Assembly: GCF_030913635.1 (NCBI RefSeq)
Contig: NZ_CP133188.1
Coordinates: 2,108,001-2,172,000 of the forward strand
Length of the DNA: 64,000 nt
DNA from: Sedimentibacter sp. MB35-C1
GTDB lineage: Bacteria; Bacillota; Clostridia; Tissierellales; Sedimentibacteraceae
Direction: 5' to 3'
Both the position numbers and the translations under genes were made by a program. The notes under the pieces were generated by a model that saw nothing but the letters and a program-made list of their open reading frames with translations, was not told the DNA's origin and did no database searches. Positions 52,574 through 58,883 of this stretch are shown here, piece after piece; position 1 is the stretch's first letter, and every line of letters begins with the position of its first letter.

Positions 52574-53671
52574 ATGAAAAAAATATTGTCTATTTTACTT
52601 TCTGTATTGATGATTTTTTCTTTAATAGGATGTTCTTCAACAGATAACAATGAAGAAATTGAAAAACCAGCAGAAAATAATGAGAGCGAAGCTGTTTCAG
52701 CTGACGAAGAAACGTGGAAAGCACATTACGATGAATCAATGAAAGATATAACACTAAATTTGTACGGAGTAACTGACGCTATTATTCCTGTTCTTGATGC
52801 ATTTACTGCTGACACAGGAATAAAGGTTGAAAATCTTACAATGAAAAACGGCGAAATTCTGCAAAGAATTCAAAACGAAAAAGATTCAGGAGTAGTTGTT
52901 GCTGATATCTGGTTTACTGGAGGAGCTGATGCATTTATTAGTGCAGCAGAAAATGGTCTTCTTGAATCATATGTATCAGAAGAATCTAAAAATATTGCTG
53001 ATGGAATGAAAGATGCTGACGGATATTGGTACGGTACATCTCTTACAGTTGTTAACTGGGTTGTTAACACAGAAATAATAGAAGAGCTTGGATTAGAGAT
53101 TCCTTCAAAGTGGGACGACCTGCTTCATCCAGAGCTGAATGGATTGGTTTCAATGTCTGATCCTGCATCTTCGGGAACAGCTTACAACACTGTTAGTGCA
53201 ATTCTTCAAACAAGAGGAGAAGAGGAAGGCTGGAACTATCTTGACAAATTAATAGCTCAGGTACCATTTTTTACAGCAAGAGGAAGCGATCCTGGTAAAA
53301 ATGTTATTGCAGGTGAAGCAGCTGTAGGAATAAATGCAGGCACTGGCGATAAGAGTTTGGAAGAAAATAACCCTCAGGTTAAAGTAATTTATCCAGAAGA
53401 CGGTACAGGATGGTGGCCACAGCCTGTTGCAATACTATCAGGATGTAAAAATCCGGAAGCTGCAAAAGTGTTCATAGATTGGCTGTTGTCAACAAAGGGA
53501 CTTGAAGAAGTAGGTAAGGCCCAGAATGCTTTGCTGGTACGTGATGATGTATCTGCTCCAGAAGGAATTTTAAGCCTTAAAGAAATTGAACTGTTCCCTA
53601 CAGATTTCAAAGCCAACGCATCTGAACGTGATGAGATTCTTTCAAAGTGGAACGAAAGAGTTAACAAATAG
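52574..53671 (+). CDS. ABC transporter substrate-binding lipoprotein (AfuA/FbpA-like)
   Basis: 365 residues, TGGAGG site. Signal peptide with lipobox LIGC (Cys at residue 20), acidic linker, then a type-2 periplasmic-binding fold: LNLYGVTDAIIPVLDAFTADTG, VVADIWFTGGADAFISAAENG, YGTSLTVVNWVVNTE, GTAYNTVSAIL. This is the Fe3+/phosphonate/polyamine-type family. It binds the solute outside the membrane for the permease and ATPase that follow. The ligand (iron chelate, 2-aminoethylphosphonate or other) is not decided by sequence. Confidence 0.88.
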   Translation: MKKILSILLSVLMIFSLIGCSSTDNNEEIEKPAENNESEAVSADEETWKAHYDESMKDITLNLYGVTDAIIPVLDAFTADTGIKVENLTMKNGEILQRIQNEKDSGVVVADIWFTGGADAFISAAENGLLESYVSEESKNIADGMKDADGYWYGTSLTVVNWVVNTEIIEELGLEIPSKWDDLLHPELNGLVSMSDPASSGTAYNTVSAILQTRGEEEGWNYLDKLIAQVPFFTARGSDPGKNVIAGEAAVGINAGTGDKSLEENNPQVKVIYPEDGTGWWPQPVAILSGCKNPEAAKVFIDWLLSTKGLEEVGKAQNALLVRDDVSAPEGILSLKEIELFPTDFKANASERDEILSKWNERVNK

Positions 53672-53689
53672 AACTAGATTAATATAATA

Positions 53690-53737
53690 AACAAGCTGTG
53701 CATAGAATTTAAGATTCTTTTTCACAGCTTGTTTATT
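53690..53737 (+). terminator. Intra-operon attenuating hairpin after the binding-protein gene
   Basis: AACAAGCTGTG (53690-53700) pairs with CACAGCTTGTT (53723-53733), followed by TATTATT. It would reduce read-through so that the binding protein is made in excess over the membrane parts. Confidence 0.65.
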
Positions 53738-53757
53738 ATTAAAGGAGCAGTGATATT

Positions 53758-55434
53758 TTGATAAGACATTTTAATTACATTAAATTAATACAGATGCTCT
53801 TAATTGTTTTTTTAACTTACTTTTGTTTTTTGCCTATTATAAGTGTAATTATATATGGGATATCAGGTGATTTGTCTTTTTTTGATCAGAAGTTAATAGA
53901 CAGAGTAATAAAACTTTTAGGAAACAGTTTGTTTGTTTCTTCTGTTGTAACGGCCATTTCGGTTTTTTTTGGAATTATTATAACATTTTGTTTAAGAAGA
54001 ATGCAATTTAAGGGAATAGGCATATTGAGAGTTCTTATGCTGTTACCTTTGGTGAATCCTGCTTTTGTGGGAGCAATTGCATTTATTATGCTTTTCGGAA
54101 GCAGGGGGCTAATAACTTATAAAATACTTCATTTAAGCGTAAGTCCATACGGATGGCAGGGCATTGTTATTTTGCAAGTTCTGTCTTTGGTAACATATGC
54201 CTATATTCTTATTTCTAGTTCAATTAAAAATGTAGATACAACAATTGAGCAGGCAGCCAGAAATCTTGGAGCATCTGAAAGTACCATACTATTTAAAATA
54301 ACTCTCCCAATGATGATTCCTGAAATTACATCTGCAGCGTTGCTTGTTTTTTTATCTTCTATGGCTGATTTTACAACTCCTCTTATGATAGGGGGTAAAT
54401 TTTCCACCCTTGCATCAGATTTGTATGTGCAGATAACAGGAGTGTACAACATGAAAAGTGCAGCAGTTTCAGGAATAATTTTGTTAATACCATGTGCTGC
54501 GGCATTTTTTGCTCAAAGGCATTTCAGCACTAGAAAAAGCTATTTTTCAGATGCATCTAATGAAAGGGATATAGTATACGAAAATGTGAGTAAACCTATA
54601 AAAATGGCGCTTATTTTCTGCACCTTGTGCTTTGTGTCATTTTTTATAATTAAATTTGGCTTCATAGTTATTGGAGCATTAACAAAAAATTGGGGATATG
54701 ATTACACATTGACCTTAGACCATGTGAGAGAAGCGCTTTCTATGAACCTTCGGCCATTTGTTAACAGTGTTAAATTATCCTTTGTTACTGCTTTGACAGC
54801 ATCATTTATGGGGGTTGTATTATCCTACATAATTAACAGAAAAAAAATAATAGTGCCTGTATTTGTAGATTTTATAGGCGTTTTTCCAGCTGCGGTTCCA
54901 GGTATTTTGTTTGGCATAGGCTATCTTGTGACATTCAAGTATCCCATATTCGGAATAGGAAAATATATATTACCAAACTTGTCACCGTGGATTATACTTG
55001 GTACAAGTGTTATTATATATCTTATATGTATAGCAAGATCATTAAATGTGGCAATGAAATCAGGATATGCTTTGTTGGAACACATTGACCCTGACCTAGA
55101 AGATGCTTCGTATAATCTGGGAGCGGGTAAAATAAAAACATTCAGGCTTGTGCTTATGCCTCTTCTTACGGAAGCTGTCGCTGCATCATATTTAAAAATA
55201 TTTTCAAGTACAATGACAACTTTAGGTGCCATAATATTTTTAATACTTCCAAAGAACAAAGTTGCAGTACAGGTTATATTTCAATCAATAACTCATTCTG
55301 CAATAGGAGTTCCTGCTACATTGGCACTGTTGCTGTCCTTTGTTACATTGGCTTTAATGGGAGTGTTTTATGTTATTCTTAACAGAAAAAGTATTACAGA
55401 TAAGTTTAAGGGGGTGATTCAGCATGAAAATTAA
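53758..55434 (+). CDS. ABC transporter permease, two fused permease domains
   Basis: 558 residues, TTG start with AAGGAG at 53742-53747. About twelve membrane helices forming two permease halves, each with an EAA-type coupling loop: EQAARNLGASESTILFKITL (about residue 162) and EDASYNLGAGKIKTFRLVLM (about residue 446). This is the FbpB/AfuB arrangement. Its 3' end overlaps the ATPase gene by 11 bases. Confidence 0.88.
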   Translation: MIRHFNYIKLIQMLLIVFLTYFCFLPIISVIIYGISGDLSFFDQKLIDRVIKLLGNSLFVSSVVTAISVFFGIIITFCLRRMQFKGIGILRVLMLLPLVNPAFVGAIAFIMLFGSRGLITYKILHLSVSPYGWQGIVILQVLSLVTYAYILISSSIKNVDTTIEQAARNLGASESTILFKITLPMMIPEITSAALLVFLSSMADFTTPLMIGGKFSTLASDLYVQITGVYNMKSAAVSGIILLIPCAAAFFAQRHFSTRKSYFSDASNERDIVYENVSKPIKMALIFCTLCFVSFFIIKFGFIVIGALTKNWGYDYTLTLDHVREALSMNLRPFVNSVKLSFVTALTASFMGVVLSYIINRKKIIVPVFVDFIGVFPAAVPGILFGIGYLVTFKYPIFGIGKYILPNLSPWIILGTSVIIYLICIARSLNVAMKSGYALLEHIDPDLEDASYNLGAGKIKTFRLVLMPLLTEAVAASYLKIFSSTMTTLGAIIFLILPKNKVAVQVIFQSITHSAIGVPATLALLLSFVTLALMGVFYVILNRKSITDKFKGVIQHEN

Positions 55435-56461
55435 ATTGGAGAACATATGTAAGACTTATGAAAGCACTCAGGTTGTTAAAGATGTTTCTATGGAAATTGA
55501 AGACGGAGAAATAATGGTACTACTAGGACCGTCGGGCTGCGGAAAAACAACTTTGTTACGAATGATTGCAGGTCTTATTTCAAGAACCCAAGGAAGAATA
55601 CTTTTTAATGATGTTGATGTAAGTAGTTTTCCACCGCAAAAAAGAAATACGGCAATGGTTTTTCAAAACTATGCATTATTTCCTCATTTAAATGTTGAAG
55701 AGAATATATCTTTTGGATTGAAAGTTAGAAAACTTCCCACTTCTAAAATTAATGAAATGGTAGCAAAAATAATAAAAAGTGTGGAGCTGGAAGGTTTAGA
55801 AAAAAGAAAGATACAGGAACTATCAGGAGGTCAAAGACAAAGGGTGGCATTGGCTCGCGCTTTGGTAATAAAGCCTGACATACTATTATTTGATGAACCT
55901 CTATCAAATCTTGATGAAAAATTAAGAGTGTCTATGAGGCAAAGCATCAAAAAGCTGCAGCGAGAGCTGGGTATTACAAGTATCTATGTAACCCATGACC
56001 AGGAAGAGGCTATGTCCATTGCAGACCGCATTACGGTTATGAACAAAGGAGAAATACAGCAGTGCGCATCACCAAATGAAATTTACAGAAATCCTAAAAA
56101 TTCCTTTGTAGCAAGTTTTGTTGGTCAGGCAAATTTATTTAACTGTCAAGTACAAAGTGATAGCGATAAGAAATATATAAATGTTCTTAACAAAAAAATA
56201 AATATTGAAAATGATATAATTGGTGAAACAGTTACTGCGATGATTCGTCCGGAACATCTTCACATAGACAAAGACGGTATTGAAGGTGTGATTGATTTTA
56301 AAGAAGAATTGGGACTTATAACCCGTTGCCAGATAAAAATTGGAGATATGAATATTTCTCTTGATGAGCTTAATGCGTCGGAACATCATACTTTAGGTGT
56401 TGGAGAAAAGATATTTGTATCCTTCGGAGAAAATGATGTGGTTATACTAAAAGAGCAGTAA
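55424..56461 (+). CDS. ABC transporter ATP-binding protein (AfuC/PotA-like)
   Basis: 345 residues. Walker A GPSGCGKTTLLRMIAG, Q-loop FQNYALFPHLN, signature LSGGQRQRVALARAL, Walker B ILLFDEPLSNLD and switch His in VTHDQEEAMSIADR; the C-terminal about 100 residues form a TOBE-type regulatory domain (MIRPEHLHIDKDG). It powers import by the preceding permease. It is the last gene before the thiamine leader region. Confidence 0.92.
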   Translation: MKIKLENICKTYESTQVVKDVSMEIEDGEIMVLLGPSGCGKTTLLRMIAGLISRTQGRILFNDVDVSSFPPQKRNTAMVFQNYALFPHLNVEENISFGLKVRKLPTSKINEMVAKIIKSVELEGLEKRKIQELSGGQRQRVALARALVIKPDILLFDEPLSNLDEKLRVSMRQSIKKLQRELGITSIYVTHDQEEAMSIADRITVMNKGEIQQCASPNEIYRNPKNSFVASFVGQANLFNCQVQSDSDKKYINVLNKKINIENDIIGETVTAMIRPEHLHIDKDGIEGVIDFKEELGLITRCQIKIGDMNISLDELNASEHHTLGVGEKIFVSFGENDVVILKEQ

Positions 56462-56496: not shown

Positions 56497-56525
56497 TTGA
56501 CAAAGCTATTTATATATGCTAAAAT
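56497..56525 (+). promoter_or_regulatory. Sigma-A promoter of the thiamine operon
   Basis: TTGACA (56497-56502), 17-base spacer, TAAAAT (56520-56525), just upstream of the TPP riboswitch. Confidence 0.7.
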
Positions 56526-56529
56526 TTAT

Positions 56530-56630
56530 ATAAGAAATAAGGGGAGCCGTAACAGGCTGAGAGGAAGTATTTATACTTCGACCCTAATAACCTGATTTGG
56601 ATAATGCCAACGTAGGGATAATGCATTGAG
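56530..56630 (+). ncRNA. TPP riboswitch (canonical Thi-box)
   Basis: GGGGAGCC..GGCTGAGAGGAAG (56541-56566), CTTCGACCC (56576-56584), then ACCTGATTTGGATAATGCCA and ACGTAGGGA (to about 56618). Both sensor arms are complete: CTGAGA for the pyrimidine ring and the GATAATG-containing arm for pyrophosphate. A terminator follows, so TPP should shut transcription. Confidence 0.95.
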
Positions 56631-56640
56631 CTTAGATTAA

Positions 56641-56680
56641 TGTGAAATATCGTGTTGGTATTTCGCATTTTTTATTTTTT
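56641..56680 (+). terminator. Expression-platform terminator of the TPP riboswitch
   Basis: TGTGAAATA (56641-56649) pairs with TATTTCGCA (56659-56667), followed by TTTTTTATTTTTT. Confidence 0.85.
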
Positions 56681-56726
56681 ATAAATTCTTTATTATAGCT
56701 TTGAGACAGATTTGTTATCATCAGGC

Positions 56727-56760
56727 AAAGGGGGAGCGCCCTGGGCCTGAGTCTTTAGAG
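56727..56760 (+). ncRNA. Half Thi-box-like segment
   Basis: GGGGGAGC (56730-56737), hairpin GCCC/GGGC, then CCTGAG (56746-56751): the 5' half of a TPP aptamer (P2 strand, P3, start of CTGAGA) without the downstream half. Probably a relic of a duplicated aptamer. Confidence 0.5.
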
Positions 56761-56769
56761 TTTAAAAAT

Positions 56770-56864
56770 AAACAGCGATGGGAGTCCGTGTACGGACTGA
56801 GAGGGAGCAATTGAGCTTCGACCGGCCTGAAATAATTTGCACAGGTTTTAAGTCGCTGTTTTGT
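56770..56864 (+). ncRNA. TPP-like variant aptamer embedded in a terminator stem
   Basis: AAACAGCGA (56770-56778) pairs with TCGCTGTTT (56853-56861) as both P1 and terminator stem. Inside: GGGAGTCCGTGTACGGACTGAGA (described by its parts GGGAG, TCCG/CGGA and CTGAGA at 56797-56802), a GGGAGC/GCTTC arm and GACC (56820-56823), all as in clostridial TPP aptamers. The second arm is replaced by CCTG (56826-56829)/CAGG (56842-56845) around AAATAATTTGCA; the TGG..GATAATGCCA..GCGTAGG pyrophosphate-sensor elements are absent. It lies 58 bases before thiW. Confidence 0.7.
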
Positions 56865-56921
56865 CATGCCTAGAACCTTTCATATGTTTCAGAGAATTTT
56901 ATCTTAAGAGAGGTTTAAAAA

Positions 56922-57473
56922 ATGACAAGAAAATCTTCACTGTTCAAAACTGTAGTCCTTTCCATGCTTGTTGCAATCGGAGTAGTAATTTCACCGATTC
57001 TCAGAGTTGAAGGGCTGTGTCCTACTGCTCACCTAATAAATATTGTTTGCTCAGTATTGCTGGGGCCGTGGTATTCACTTCTTTGCGCTGTTATGATAGG
57101 AATAATACGTATGATATTTATGGGAATCCCTCCGCTTGCTCTTACAGGCGCAGTATTCGGTGCGTTTCTTTCCGGAATTTTTTATCGAATTTCAAATGGT
57201 AAAATAATATTTGCCGTTATAGGTGAAATATTTGGTACAGGTGTTATTGGGGCAATTGTCTCATATCCTGTAATGGCATTGATATGGGGCAGAACAGGCC
57301 TTACATGGATGTTTTACGTTCCTTCATTTATAACAGCTACAATAATGGGAGGTATGGCAGCATACATATTGTTGAAGGCTTTAAGTAGGAACGGAATGTT
57401 ACTGAAATTTCAAAAAAGCTTAGGAGTTAATGTTTATGATAAACCAACTTTTAAAAATAAAGTTACAGATTAA
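56922..57473 (+). CDS. thiW: ThiW, S component of a thiazole ECF transporter
   Basis: 183 residues with five to six membrane helices. ThiW is the substrate-binding subunit for the thiamine thiazole precursor (hydroxyethylthiazole) in an energy-coupling-factor transporter. Conserved segments include HLINIVCSVLLGPWYSLLCA and MALIWGRTGLTWMFYVPSF. Its ECF ATPases and T component are not here and would be shared from elsewhere. GAGAGG site; overlaps thiM by 38 bases. Confidence 0.92.
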   Translation: MTRKSSLFKTVVLSMLVAIGVVISPILRVEGLCPTAHLINIVCSVLLGPWYSLLCAVMIGIIRMIFMGIPPLALTGAVFGAFLSGIFYRISNGKIIFAVIGEIFGTGVIGAIVSYPVMALIWGRTGLTWMFYVPSFITATIMGGMAAYILLKALSRNGMLLKFQKSLGVNVYDKPTFKNKVTD

Positions 57474-58254
57474 AGTAGACAGTCCTCTGATACATTGTAT
57501 AACAAATCCCATATCAATCAATGACTGTGCAAATATTGTCTTAGCTGCCGGATCCAAGCCCATAATGGCAGAACATCCTGATGAGGTTGAGGAAATAACG
57601 GCGTTATCACAGGCGTTAGCTGTAAACTTAGGCAACATAACAGATGTAAGGATAAAGTCTATGATGCTTTCGGGGAAAGTGGCAGCTATAAGTAAAATTC
57701 CTTCAATAATCGATGTTGTGGGAGTAGGGTGCAGCAGCTTGAGGCTTAATTATGCCAAGGAATATATATGTAAGAACAAACCATCTGCAATAAAGGGAAA
57801 CATGTCAGAAATAAAATCACTTTGCAATATGGATTCGCATTCTGTGGGAATAGATGCCGGAAATGATGACGTAATAAATGCGAATACTTTAGTAAGAAAT
57901 TCTGAAATTGTCAGAGAGCTGTCATTGGCCACAGGGGCGGTAGTCGTTGCTACCGGAAAAATTGATATAATAAGTGACGGAAGAAAAACATATTCAATTA
58001 AAAACGGTATTGAAATTATGTCTCATATAACCGGTACAGGATGTATGCTCAATGTTTTAATTGCAAGCTATATTTCATCCGGTAGGATATTAGAGGGTGT
58101 AATATTAGGTACGGCAGCTTTGGGAATTAGCGGCGAATTGTCCAGAGACGTAAAAGGTACCGGAAGTTTTAAAACAGCATTGTTGGATAATCTTTATACT
58201 TTGACGGATGAATCTATTAAAGAATCTATTAAATTGGAGGAAGTAACCATATGA
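57436..58254 (+). CDS. thiM: Hydroxyethylthiazole kinase
   Basis: About 272 residues from the ATG at 57436 (TAGGAG nine bases upstream); an ATG at 57430 is too close to the site. ThiM phosphorylates the thiazole alcohol using ATP. Family blocks: PLIHCITNPISINDCAN, SKPIMAEHPDEVEE, NLGNITD, AIKGNMSEIKSL and the C-terminal HITGTGCMLNVLIA with the catalytic Cys. The usual LDPVG(A/V)G block reads IDVVGVG. It uses the ligand imported by ThiW, and its product goes to ThiE. Overlaps thiE by four bases. Confidence 0.93.
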   Translation: MINQLLKIKLQIKVDSPLIHCITNPISINDCANIVLAAGSKPIMAEHPDEVEEITALSQALAVNLGNITDVRIKSMMLSGKVAAISKIPSIIDVVGVGCSSLRLNYAKEYICKNKPSAIKGNMSEIKSLCNMDSHSVGIDAGNDDVINANTLVRNSEIVRELSLATGAVVVATGKIDIISDGRKTYSIKNGIEIMSHITGTGCMLNVLIASYISSGRILEGVILGTAALGISGELSRDVKGTGSFKTALLDNLYTLTDESIKESIKLEEVTI

Positions 58255-58883
58255 AATTTGATACTACATTGTATTTTGTTACGGACAGCACAGGAAAAAC
58301 AGAGAATGAATTTTTGAATGTTGTTGAAAAAGCCTGCAAAGGTGGGGTAACCCTTATACAGCTGAGAGAAAAAAACTTAACTGGAAGAGATTATTTGAAA
58401 CTTGCATTGAATGTTAAGATTATTACAGACAAATACAATATACCTCTTATCATAGATGACAGAATTGATGTAGCAATGGCATCAGATGCTTCGGGAGTCC
58501 ATGTGGGACAAAATGATATTCCCGTGAGCTATGCAAGAAAGCTAATGGGAAAAAATAAAATTATAGGTGCCACGGCCAAAACCGTAGAACAGGCACTTGT
58601 GGCATATGAACAGGGAGCAGACTATCTGGGAGTTGGAGCAATATATCCGACTACAACTAAGGTTGCTACACGTATAACAGATGTTAGCACATTGAACGAT
58701 ATTTGCAGAGCAGTACCTATTCCTGTTGTTGCAATTGGCGGTTTGAATATAAATAATATTGATATCCTAAAAGAAAGTCCCATAAAGGGAATTTCTGTAG
58801 TTTCAGCTGTTATGAAGTCCATAGATCCGGAAAAATCTGCTATGGATTTAAAGAAAAAAGTTGCTGATATGTTGGATAAATAG
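58251..58883 (+). CDS. thiE: Thiamine phosphate synthase
   Basis: 210 residues, TIM barrel. It joins HMP-PP and thiazole phosphate to thiamine phosphate. Motifs: TLIQLREKNLTGRDYL, LIIDDRIDVAMASDASGVHVGQND, GAIYPTTTK and VVAIGGLN. With ThiW and ThiM it forms a thiazole-salvage route that needs HMP-PP from elsewhere (no thiC or thiD here). ATG overlaps the thiM stop (ATGA). Confidence 0.94.
   Translation: MKFDTTLYFVTDSTGKTENEFLNVVEKACKGGVTLIQLREKNLTGRDYLKLALNVKIITDKYNIPLIIDDRIDVAMASDASGVHVGQNDIPVSYARKLMGKNKIIGATAKTVEQALVAYEQGADYLGVGAIYPTTTKVATRITDVSTLNDICRAVPIPVVAIGGLNINNIDILKESPIKGISVVSAVMKSIDPEKSAMDLKKKVADMLDK

Follow-up and report, generated by a model that had tools for sequence, protein, structure and literature searches.

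The window analysed here, a stretch of 64,000 nucleotides from contig NZ_CP133188.1 of Sedimentibacter sp. MB35-C1, carries the genes thiW, thiM and thiE behind a structured leader (Table 1). Profile matches bore out the three gene names given in a first-pass annotation of the sequence; TIGR02359, the model applied to thiW, also accepts five reference ThiW proteins of various types at its cut-off. The canonical TPP riboswitch with its own terminator, which the same annotation had placed in the leader, was likewise recovered. ABC transporter genes (52574-56461) lie directly upstream of this leader; their substrate-binding protein and permease come closest to a 2-aminoethylphosphonate set (phnS2, PhnU2), below cut-off, and the ATPase is about equally similar to several families.

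Table 1. Leader features and genes of the thiW-thiM-thiE locus, in coordinates of the window.
Feature	Position	Strand	Basis
Promoter-like site of the leader, TTGACA-17-TAAAAT	56497-56525	+	11 of 12 consensus matches; consensus only
Canonical TPP riboswitch aptamer	56530-56635	+	RF00059, 68.2 bits (cut-off 54.3)
Intrinsic terminator of the TPP riboswitch	56639-56669	+	14-pair stem and T run
P0 hairpin (module 2)	56721-56750	+	Presence in members; covarying stems
P0 outer stem	56722-56726/56745-56749	+	
P0 inner stem	56729-56732/56739-56742	+	
P0 loop GGAGCG	56733-56738	+	
Variable linker, P0 to P1	56751-56769	+	Alignments; 6-54 nt in members scored, longer in others
P1 5′ strand AAACAGCGAT	56770-56779	+	Pairs with 56852-56861; predicted fold; compensatory forms in CAGCGAU-type relatives
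TPP-like half aptamer	56781-56823	+	Alignments; P3 and P3a covary, P2 invariant
P2 of the half aptamer	56781-56782/56822-56823	+	
P3 of the half aptamer, loop TGTA	56784-56788/56793-56797	+	
UGAGA	56798-56802	+	
P3a of the half aptamer	56804-56808/56815-56819	+	
Short P4 hairpin in place of P4/P5: CCTG 56826-56829 with CAGG 56842-56845	56826-56845	+	Kept in three genus genomes; variable or absent elsewhere
P1 3′ strand GTCGCTGTTT	56852-56861	+	Predicted fold, helix search
Predicted translation-control hairpin	56861-56928	+	Predicted in G000, G019 and G009; anti-SD strand differs in G009
Start-codon part: TTGTCAT with ATGACAA (start codon)	56861-56867/56922-56928		
SD part: GAACCTTTC with GAGAGGTTT (Shine-Dalgarno)	56873-56881/56908-56916		
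thiW, ECF S component for hydroxyethylthiazole	56922-57473	+	TIGR02359, 131.2 bits (cut-off 84.35)
thiM, hydroxyethylthiazole kinase	57430-58254	+	NF006830, 245.4 bits (cut-off 180); TIGR00694, 207.7, below its cut-off of 256.4
thiE, thiamin phosphate synthase	58251-58883	+	TIGR00693, 214.2 bits (cut-off 145.1)

Two further structures follow the terminator, and an Rfam 15 scan of the window at E ≤ 5 gave no match at either of them. The first (module 2), originally described as a half copy of a Thi-box, is instead a distinct GAGC-loop hairpin, termed P0, in which an outer CAGGC/GCCTG stem is joined through an AA/GG internal loop to an inner AGGG/CCCT stem capped by GGAGCG; its resemblance to TGAG is lost in G009 (GGCATTAG), another genome of the genus. 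The second (module 3, 56770-56861) is a TPP-like RNA whose predicted fold comprises a 10-bp P1, P3, UGAGA, P3a and a short hairpin in which CCTG and CAGG pair as claimed, and it contains no P4/P5 core, in line with the reported loss of the pyrophosphate arm. The 2-bp P2 (GG/CC) is assigned by homology to the TPP aptamer and is absent from the window's predicted fold. With RF00059 silent at this threshold, module 3 falls outside the TPP model. The proposal that its P1 is itself a terminator stem did not hold: only TTTTG follows, G009 has no T run, and a terminator scan of the window finds only the TPP terminator.

A leader peptide was also considered for module 3 and rejected, as the ATG-TAG frame read by eye in the window stops after seven codons in G009. 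An indel in the P3 loop breaks this frame in the alignment, which marks the conservation as that of an RNA.

Homologues were sought at increasing distance. ThiW is encoded in 13 of the 27 genomes of the family searched, and the whole array recurs in two further genus genomes, G019 (ThiW 98% identical) and G009 (87%); in the latter the flanks have diverged, whereas AAAGGGGGAGCGCCCTGG and almost the whole of module 3, as far as CCTGAAATA, are conserved. A covariance model of module 3 built on two genomes (R1) and searched in 249 genomes of the order matched, besides G009 and canonical TPP riboswitches, six distant loci, which share the upstream GAGC-loop hairpin, a feature outside the model. A second model (R2), built on nine loci (alignment A6), yielded 10 loci at ≥60 bits in the 249 order genomes, the window included, 17 at this score besides the window in 391 genomes of the class, and four new loci at E ≤ 1e-9 in 398 genomes of the phylum; one locus of the order search, L054, scored 52.0. 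Canonical TPP riboswitches start at about 52 bits with R2 (L091, 52.1), so borderline scores need inspection. All 20 weaker class matches that were inspected (38-47 bits), a minority of the R2 matches below 52 bits, proved to be canonical TPP riboswitches, 19 by rule and L258 by eye.

A further set was collected independently by scanning named genome contigs for a 26-base pattern limited to GGGAA-P3-GUGAGAGG. It returned at least 118 stretches, a lower bound that is biased to one subtype, and all of the 80 taken match R2 at 52-96 bits, five of them being cut off at one end. Their titles include Lachnospiraceae, Oscillospiraceae, Ruminococcus, Faecalibacterium prausnitzii and Gemmiger formicilis, as well as Veillonella (Negativicutes) and Floccifex porci (Erysipelotrichia). 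The 108 collected members thus combine 28 model-found and 80 pattern-found loci, ranging by taxon over Clostridia, Veillonella and Erysipelotrichia; the four phylum loci L103-L106 stand outside the gene counts given below. The homologous variants before thiW or thiM for which the first-pass annotation had called therefore exist, both in two other genus genomes and in many further genera, and this recurrence shows that module 3 is not a product of chance. No viral contig with ThiW was found.

The GAGC-loop hairpin and the TPP-like part occur together in all 107 members with upstream DNA (of 108; L154 is cut). Under a loose rule, requiring at least two of four inner pairs around NGAGCN, P0 was detected beside module 3 in 98 of the 108 members, with L107 and L176 on a wrong GAGC: L107 has the correct hairpin at -63, and L176, whose locus starts inside P0 with only the loop side visible, is counted in part only. 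The hairpin was read by eye in L161 (GGAGTG) and L179, lies farther off in L120, L167, L184 and L186, and is found at -182 to -235 in L110, L139 and L172. Under a strict rule limited to 100 nt, it was recognised in 88 of 106 members and, within the subset that came from the P3 pattern alone, in 68 of 78; the same rule scored 0 of 176 for canonical TPP aptamers (2 of 176 when loosened) and 11 of 1060 for shuffles. Across 75 distinct P0 hairpins, misplaced ones included, the inner stem is 96.7% paired versus 76.9% in shuffles and the outer stem 88.7% versus 59.5%. Their joint retention across spacers as long as about 200 nt speaks for a spatial contact between them. From sequence comparison, modules 2 and 3 are best read as one structured cis-regulatory RNA, a candidate riboswitch class derived from the TPP aptamer, for which the name thiW element is used here.

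Two variations on this layout were observed. Mediterraneibacter and relatives (L107, L184, L186, L166, L110, L139 and L172) form a subtype in which a spacer as long as about 200 nt separates P0 from the TPP-like part; four of these loci (L107, L184, L186 and L166) also have a canonical TPP riboswitch, several hundred nt downstream of the thiW element. In several relatives among L074-L088, another short hairpin followed by CGG stands directly upstream of P0, often with GGAGG before it (both by eye), and the element may extend further 5′.

The covariation looked for after the first-pass annotation is strong in P0, P3 and P3a, while P2 never varies. In alignment A6 (9 loci), standard pairs fill 97.8% of cells and double-sided changes occur in 8 of 15 pairs, a number as high in 0 of 500 shuffles; the number of further pair types is not above shuffles (249 of 500). 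The 80-row alignment was fitted to the model; in it, pairing holds in 99.5% of cells and 9 of 15 pairs change on both sides, with 165 double-change cells versus a shuffled mean of 40.8; the number of pairs with double changes is reached by 16 of 500 shuffles. The element thereby shows a general riboswitch trait, a conserved structure in the leaders of metabolically related genes. These data bear directly on the fallback offered in the first-pass annotation, namely a decayed TPP copy acting as a plain terminator, to be preferred should homologues and covariation be lacking. It would explain why Rfam gives module 3 no TPP score; conservation with covariation across classes and the missing terminator refute it, and practically no credence is left for it. 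That the thiW element is a real conserved regulatory RNA is close to certain, and very probably it works as a riboswitch.

UGAGA, P3a, CGACC and the GG/CC of P2 are conserved in the members, which were partly selected for P2, P3 and P3a with UGAGA. The P3 loop is UGUUY in 24 of the 28 model-found members (nine of these being training rows) and GUGUUY in 103 of all 108, 80 of which were selected for it; in 173 canonical TPP aptamers the same loop gave 101 different automatic calls. The residue before UGAGA is G in 99 of 108 members and C in canonical aptamers, which offers no contrast because the canonical set was selected with C. The window copy departs from its relatives in having CUGAGA rather than GUGAGA and UGUA as its P3 loop.

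By either of two rules, the P4/P5 core is present in 0 of the 104 members with enough sequence. One of these rules (TAAT..TAGG) finds the core in 140 of 173 canonical aptamers; the other was used to select the canonical set, so it gives no contrast. A variable hairpin, often with a UUCC/GGAA-like stem (by eye), occupies this place, and L054, L053 and L110 have nothing there, the Shine-Dalgarno sequence following almost directly after CGACCG. The CCTG/CAGG arm singled out at the outset is thus real in the window and seen in this genus only. P1 is clear in CAGCGAU-type members, where it takes many compensatory forms (AAACAGCGAT/GTCGCTGTTT, CTAAATAGC/GCTATTTAG, GACGCAGC/GCTGCGTC), and short-leader members seem to do without it. 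The best P1 helix reaches 17.6 over the 102 of 108 members scored, versus 13.4 (sd 2.75) in mononucleotide shuffles, so P1 is not general. Taken together, the original observation is partly confirmed: it holds in its main point and reaches further than first described.

Of the 100 loci with a readable next gene, 96 lead into ThiW and 4 into ThiM, the other eight members ending 0-289 nt downstream, and the R2 genome searches of order, class and phylum gave no member at another thiamin gene among matches of ≥60 bits. This association weighs against a rather unlikely alternative, in which the same architecture binds thiamin or thiamin monophosphate (TMP) and acts as an OFF switch that repeats end-product control. 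Such a ligand would suit an aptamer that has kept its pyrimidine pocket and lost the pyrophosphate arm, the anti-SD competition predicted in the window (see below) fits an OFF switch, and Breaker and co-workers (PMC9481103) note a preference for thiamin or TMP in some RNAs that are counted as TPP riboswitches. That remark, however, concerns RNAs classed as TPP, whereas RF00059 missed the thiW element where scanned; a thiamin sensor would also be expected at thiamin uptake genes, yet all 100 readable loci lead into thiW or thiM, and the 20 weaker matches inspected added only canonical TPP riboswitches.

A TPP riboswitch stands upstream in at least 56 of the 80 pattern-found members (52 by pattern, four more by Rfam), and 21 of the 28 model-found members carry at least one TPP mark under a loose pattern. 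Since tandem TPP riboswitches are known (PMC9481103), the element might be a second TPP sensor that draws its pyrophosphate contacts from the 5′ hairpin and steepens the response (pseudo-cooperativity). We consider this distinctly unlikely, as an Rfam check of 18 members left 14 without a TPP riboswitch in their leader, although they stand at the same genes; with an unchanged ligand, moreover, one would hardly expect a universal arm to be replaced at thiazole genes alone. Triple arrays, with two TPP riboswitch marks before the thiW element, were observed in L046, L136, L175 and L185.

The metabolic setting was read from the member genomes. The genome of MB35-C1 encodes ThiC and CytX, each behind a TPP riboswitch, and also ThiD; its best ThiG match (29.7 bits, Pfam cut-off 23) covers positions 121-211 of 247 in a 342-residue frame, and we read this weak partial match as another protein. 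Across 32 member genomes, counted alone and without a background sample, ThiC is above cut-off in 20, several of the genomes being incomplete, and ThiG is above Pfam's low cut-off in 17, the MB35-C1 genome included; the ThiG match is near-full and strong, at 297 bits or more, in four of these, and the matches in the other 13 are partial or weak. With ThiC common but strong ThiG scarce, most member bacteria would import thiazole, and many can make HMP. Elsewhere in the MB35-C1 genome, L004 (C1:3539512-3539644, minus strand) gives a TPP-like match that, at 43.1 bits, falls short of the Rfam cut-off; an additional hairpin-like insertion separates its ACCC strand from P4, and it stands before genes for a small protein, which we take to be MTH1187-like, and ABC-transporter-like proteins.

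In the TPP aptamer, UGAGA, P2 and P3a make up the HMP pocket. These are among the most conserved parts of the thiW element, its members having been partly selected for them, which speaks against a binding site for a protein or for another thiamin-pathway signal (thiazole or its phosphate) that merely borrows the TPP-like scaffold. Although the gene association is with thiazole (HET) supply and an HMP-type ligand is something we infer, such a binding site is very unlikely. A ligand carrying the HMP ring is probable, and HMP, HMP-P, HMP-PP and thiamin form a plausible set. Within it HMP-PP, the partner that ThiE joins to thiazole phosphate, would be the most likely candidate; it is favoured by the gene association and the mostly missing thiazole pathway and not implied by the aptamer, which would fit thiamin or TMP too, so that for HMP-PP specifically we stop a little short of even odds.

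The mechanism proposed for this architecture is as follows. The 5′ hairpin would dock on the conserved P3 loop (GUGUUY), to whose GUUY the GAGC is complementary, and take over the role of the lost arm, the two pieces forming one ligand pocket. This GAGC-GUUY contact is proposed for two nearly invariant loops that show no covariation, and the window loop UGUA breaks one of its four pairs. In the leader as a whole, a first switch (TPP low, transcription) and then a second (HMP-PP at hand, probably translation) would restrict production of ThiW, ThiM and ThiE to the case in which both conditions hold; in the window the second would act on the hairpin that hides the Shine-Dalgarno sequence and start codon of thiW. 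This explanation, a split TPP-derived riboswitch candidate that gates thiazole salvage with HMP-PP as its most likely ligand, is given a rough probability of 0.55. A further step, that the element is a second, independently evolved HMP-PP class which dropped the pyrophosphate arm, recruited a 5′ GAGC hairpin kissing the P3 loop and formed a 'not TPP and HMP-PP' gate, is put forward tentatively, at somewhat less than an even chance.

An ON switch is claimed by analogy: metabolic logic and the TPP/HMP-PP tandems described in PMC6478431 and PMC9481103 suggest that ligand binding would turn expression on. Beyond P1, the fold predicted for G000, G019 and G009 buries both the Shine-Dalgarno sequence and the start codon. 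The anti-SD strand can also pair with the 3′ strand of P4 (-8.2, -8.2 and -11.1 kcal/mol versus -10.7, -10.7 and -11.0, respectively), which makes switching possible. A ligand that stabilises P4 would free the anti-SD and give OFF, and the default would also be OFF; the competition predicted in the window fits an OFF switch as well. For the long leaders of G019 and G009, the proposed aptamer is not the energy minimum: in the minimum-energy fold, P3 is paired with the P4 region instead. An ON/OFF folding test on 90 of the 96 leaders with a called start (six skipped) gave a mean SD accessibility of 0.44 in both states, with three leaders up and one down by more than 0.1 (Wilcoxon p 0.018), a negligible effect that indicates no direction.

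Although TPP riboswitches rank among the most abundant RNAs and the most thoroughly studied, a widespread relative with half of its aptamer replaced has apparently been missed by Rfam 15 and the literature searched. If HMP-PP is bound, the element would illustrate how replacing an entire domain gives a riboswitch a different ligand, and the logic of the thiS motif would have been reached a second time, by convergence. Were the HMP-PP gate true, it would operate in many Firmicutes; in those sampled, HMP synthesis is frequent and thiazole mostly has to be imported. The element may also be a marker of bacteria that rely on imported thiazole for their vitamin B1, with loci found in Faecalibacterium, Gemmiger, Veillonella and many uncultured bacteria.

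With the TPP riboswitch (RF00059, THI element) the thiW element shares P3, UGAGA, P3a with its CGACC strand, and a place in thiamin-gene leaders. It differs in lacking the P4/P5 core of that class, in having GGGAA in 96 of 108 members where canonical TPP aptamers mostly have GGGGA or GGGAG, and in two features of its own, the conserved P3 loop GUGUUY and the 5′ GAGC hairpin. RF00059 gave no match at the element in 34 loci at its gathering score, nor in L136 at E ≤ 10. We call the thiW element a relative of the TPP aptamer that lacks the P4/P5 core and is recognised neither by the TPP model nor by a thiS model. The TPP variants of the Breaker laboratory, RNAs classed as TPP riboswitches that favour thiamin or TMP and are cited in one sentence as 'unpublished findings' in PMC9481103 (ref. 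82), embody the same idea, a TPP-related aptamer with another thiamin-pathway ligand, and may overlap with the thiW element. Among the papers listed in searches of the open-access literature, a body that leaves most subscription papers outside, none describes the element, and the passages accessible in two papers that mention thiW concern thiS or tandem TPP RNAs instead. The element is apparently undescribed in Rfam 15 and the searchable literature.

With the HMP-PP riboswitch (thiS motif) the element shares the second position behind a TPP riboswitch with its own terminator and an association with thiazole-supply genes including thiW; according to PMC6478431, HMP-PP riboswitches occur behind a TPP riboswitch at thiW. 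If the HMP-PP reading is true, the 'not TPP and HMP-PP' gate would be the same as that of TPP/thiS tandems. The thiS motif is a small aptamer inside a terminator (same source), whereas the thiW element differs in sequence and fold and, in the window, has no terminator of its own. A kinship between the two, suggested in the first-pass annotation, found no support from a home-made thiS model built on four genus loci (R3), the thiS name resting on the published description and this model: R3 gave no match at E ≤ 0.01 anywhere in the 50 loci with a thiW element among 57 searched, yet across 391 genomes it detects thiS-type motifs in 25, where the gene that follows is mostly short and, by eye, ThiS. 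Counted per genome, 25 of the 391 carry the thiS motif, 18 the thiW element and one both (chance expectation about one); this genome, G365, has a thiW element at thiW and an R3 match, L247 (43.9 bits), beside which no thiamin gene was recognised. At loci L008-L012, from other genus genomes with a more distant ThiW, a thiS-type motif stands in place of the thiW element, and in L010 it follows a TPP-like Thi-box (by eye). Related Sedimentibacter species may thus solve the same task with two different RNAs.
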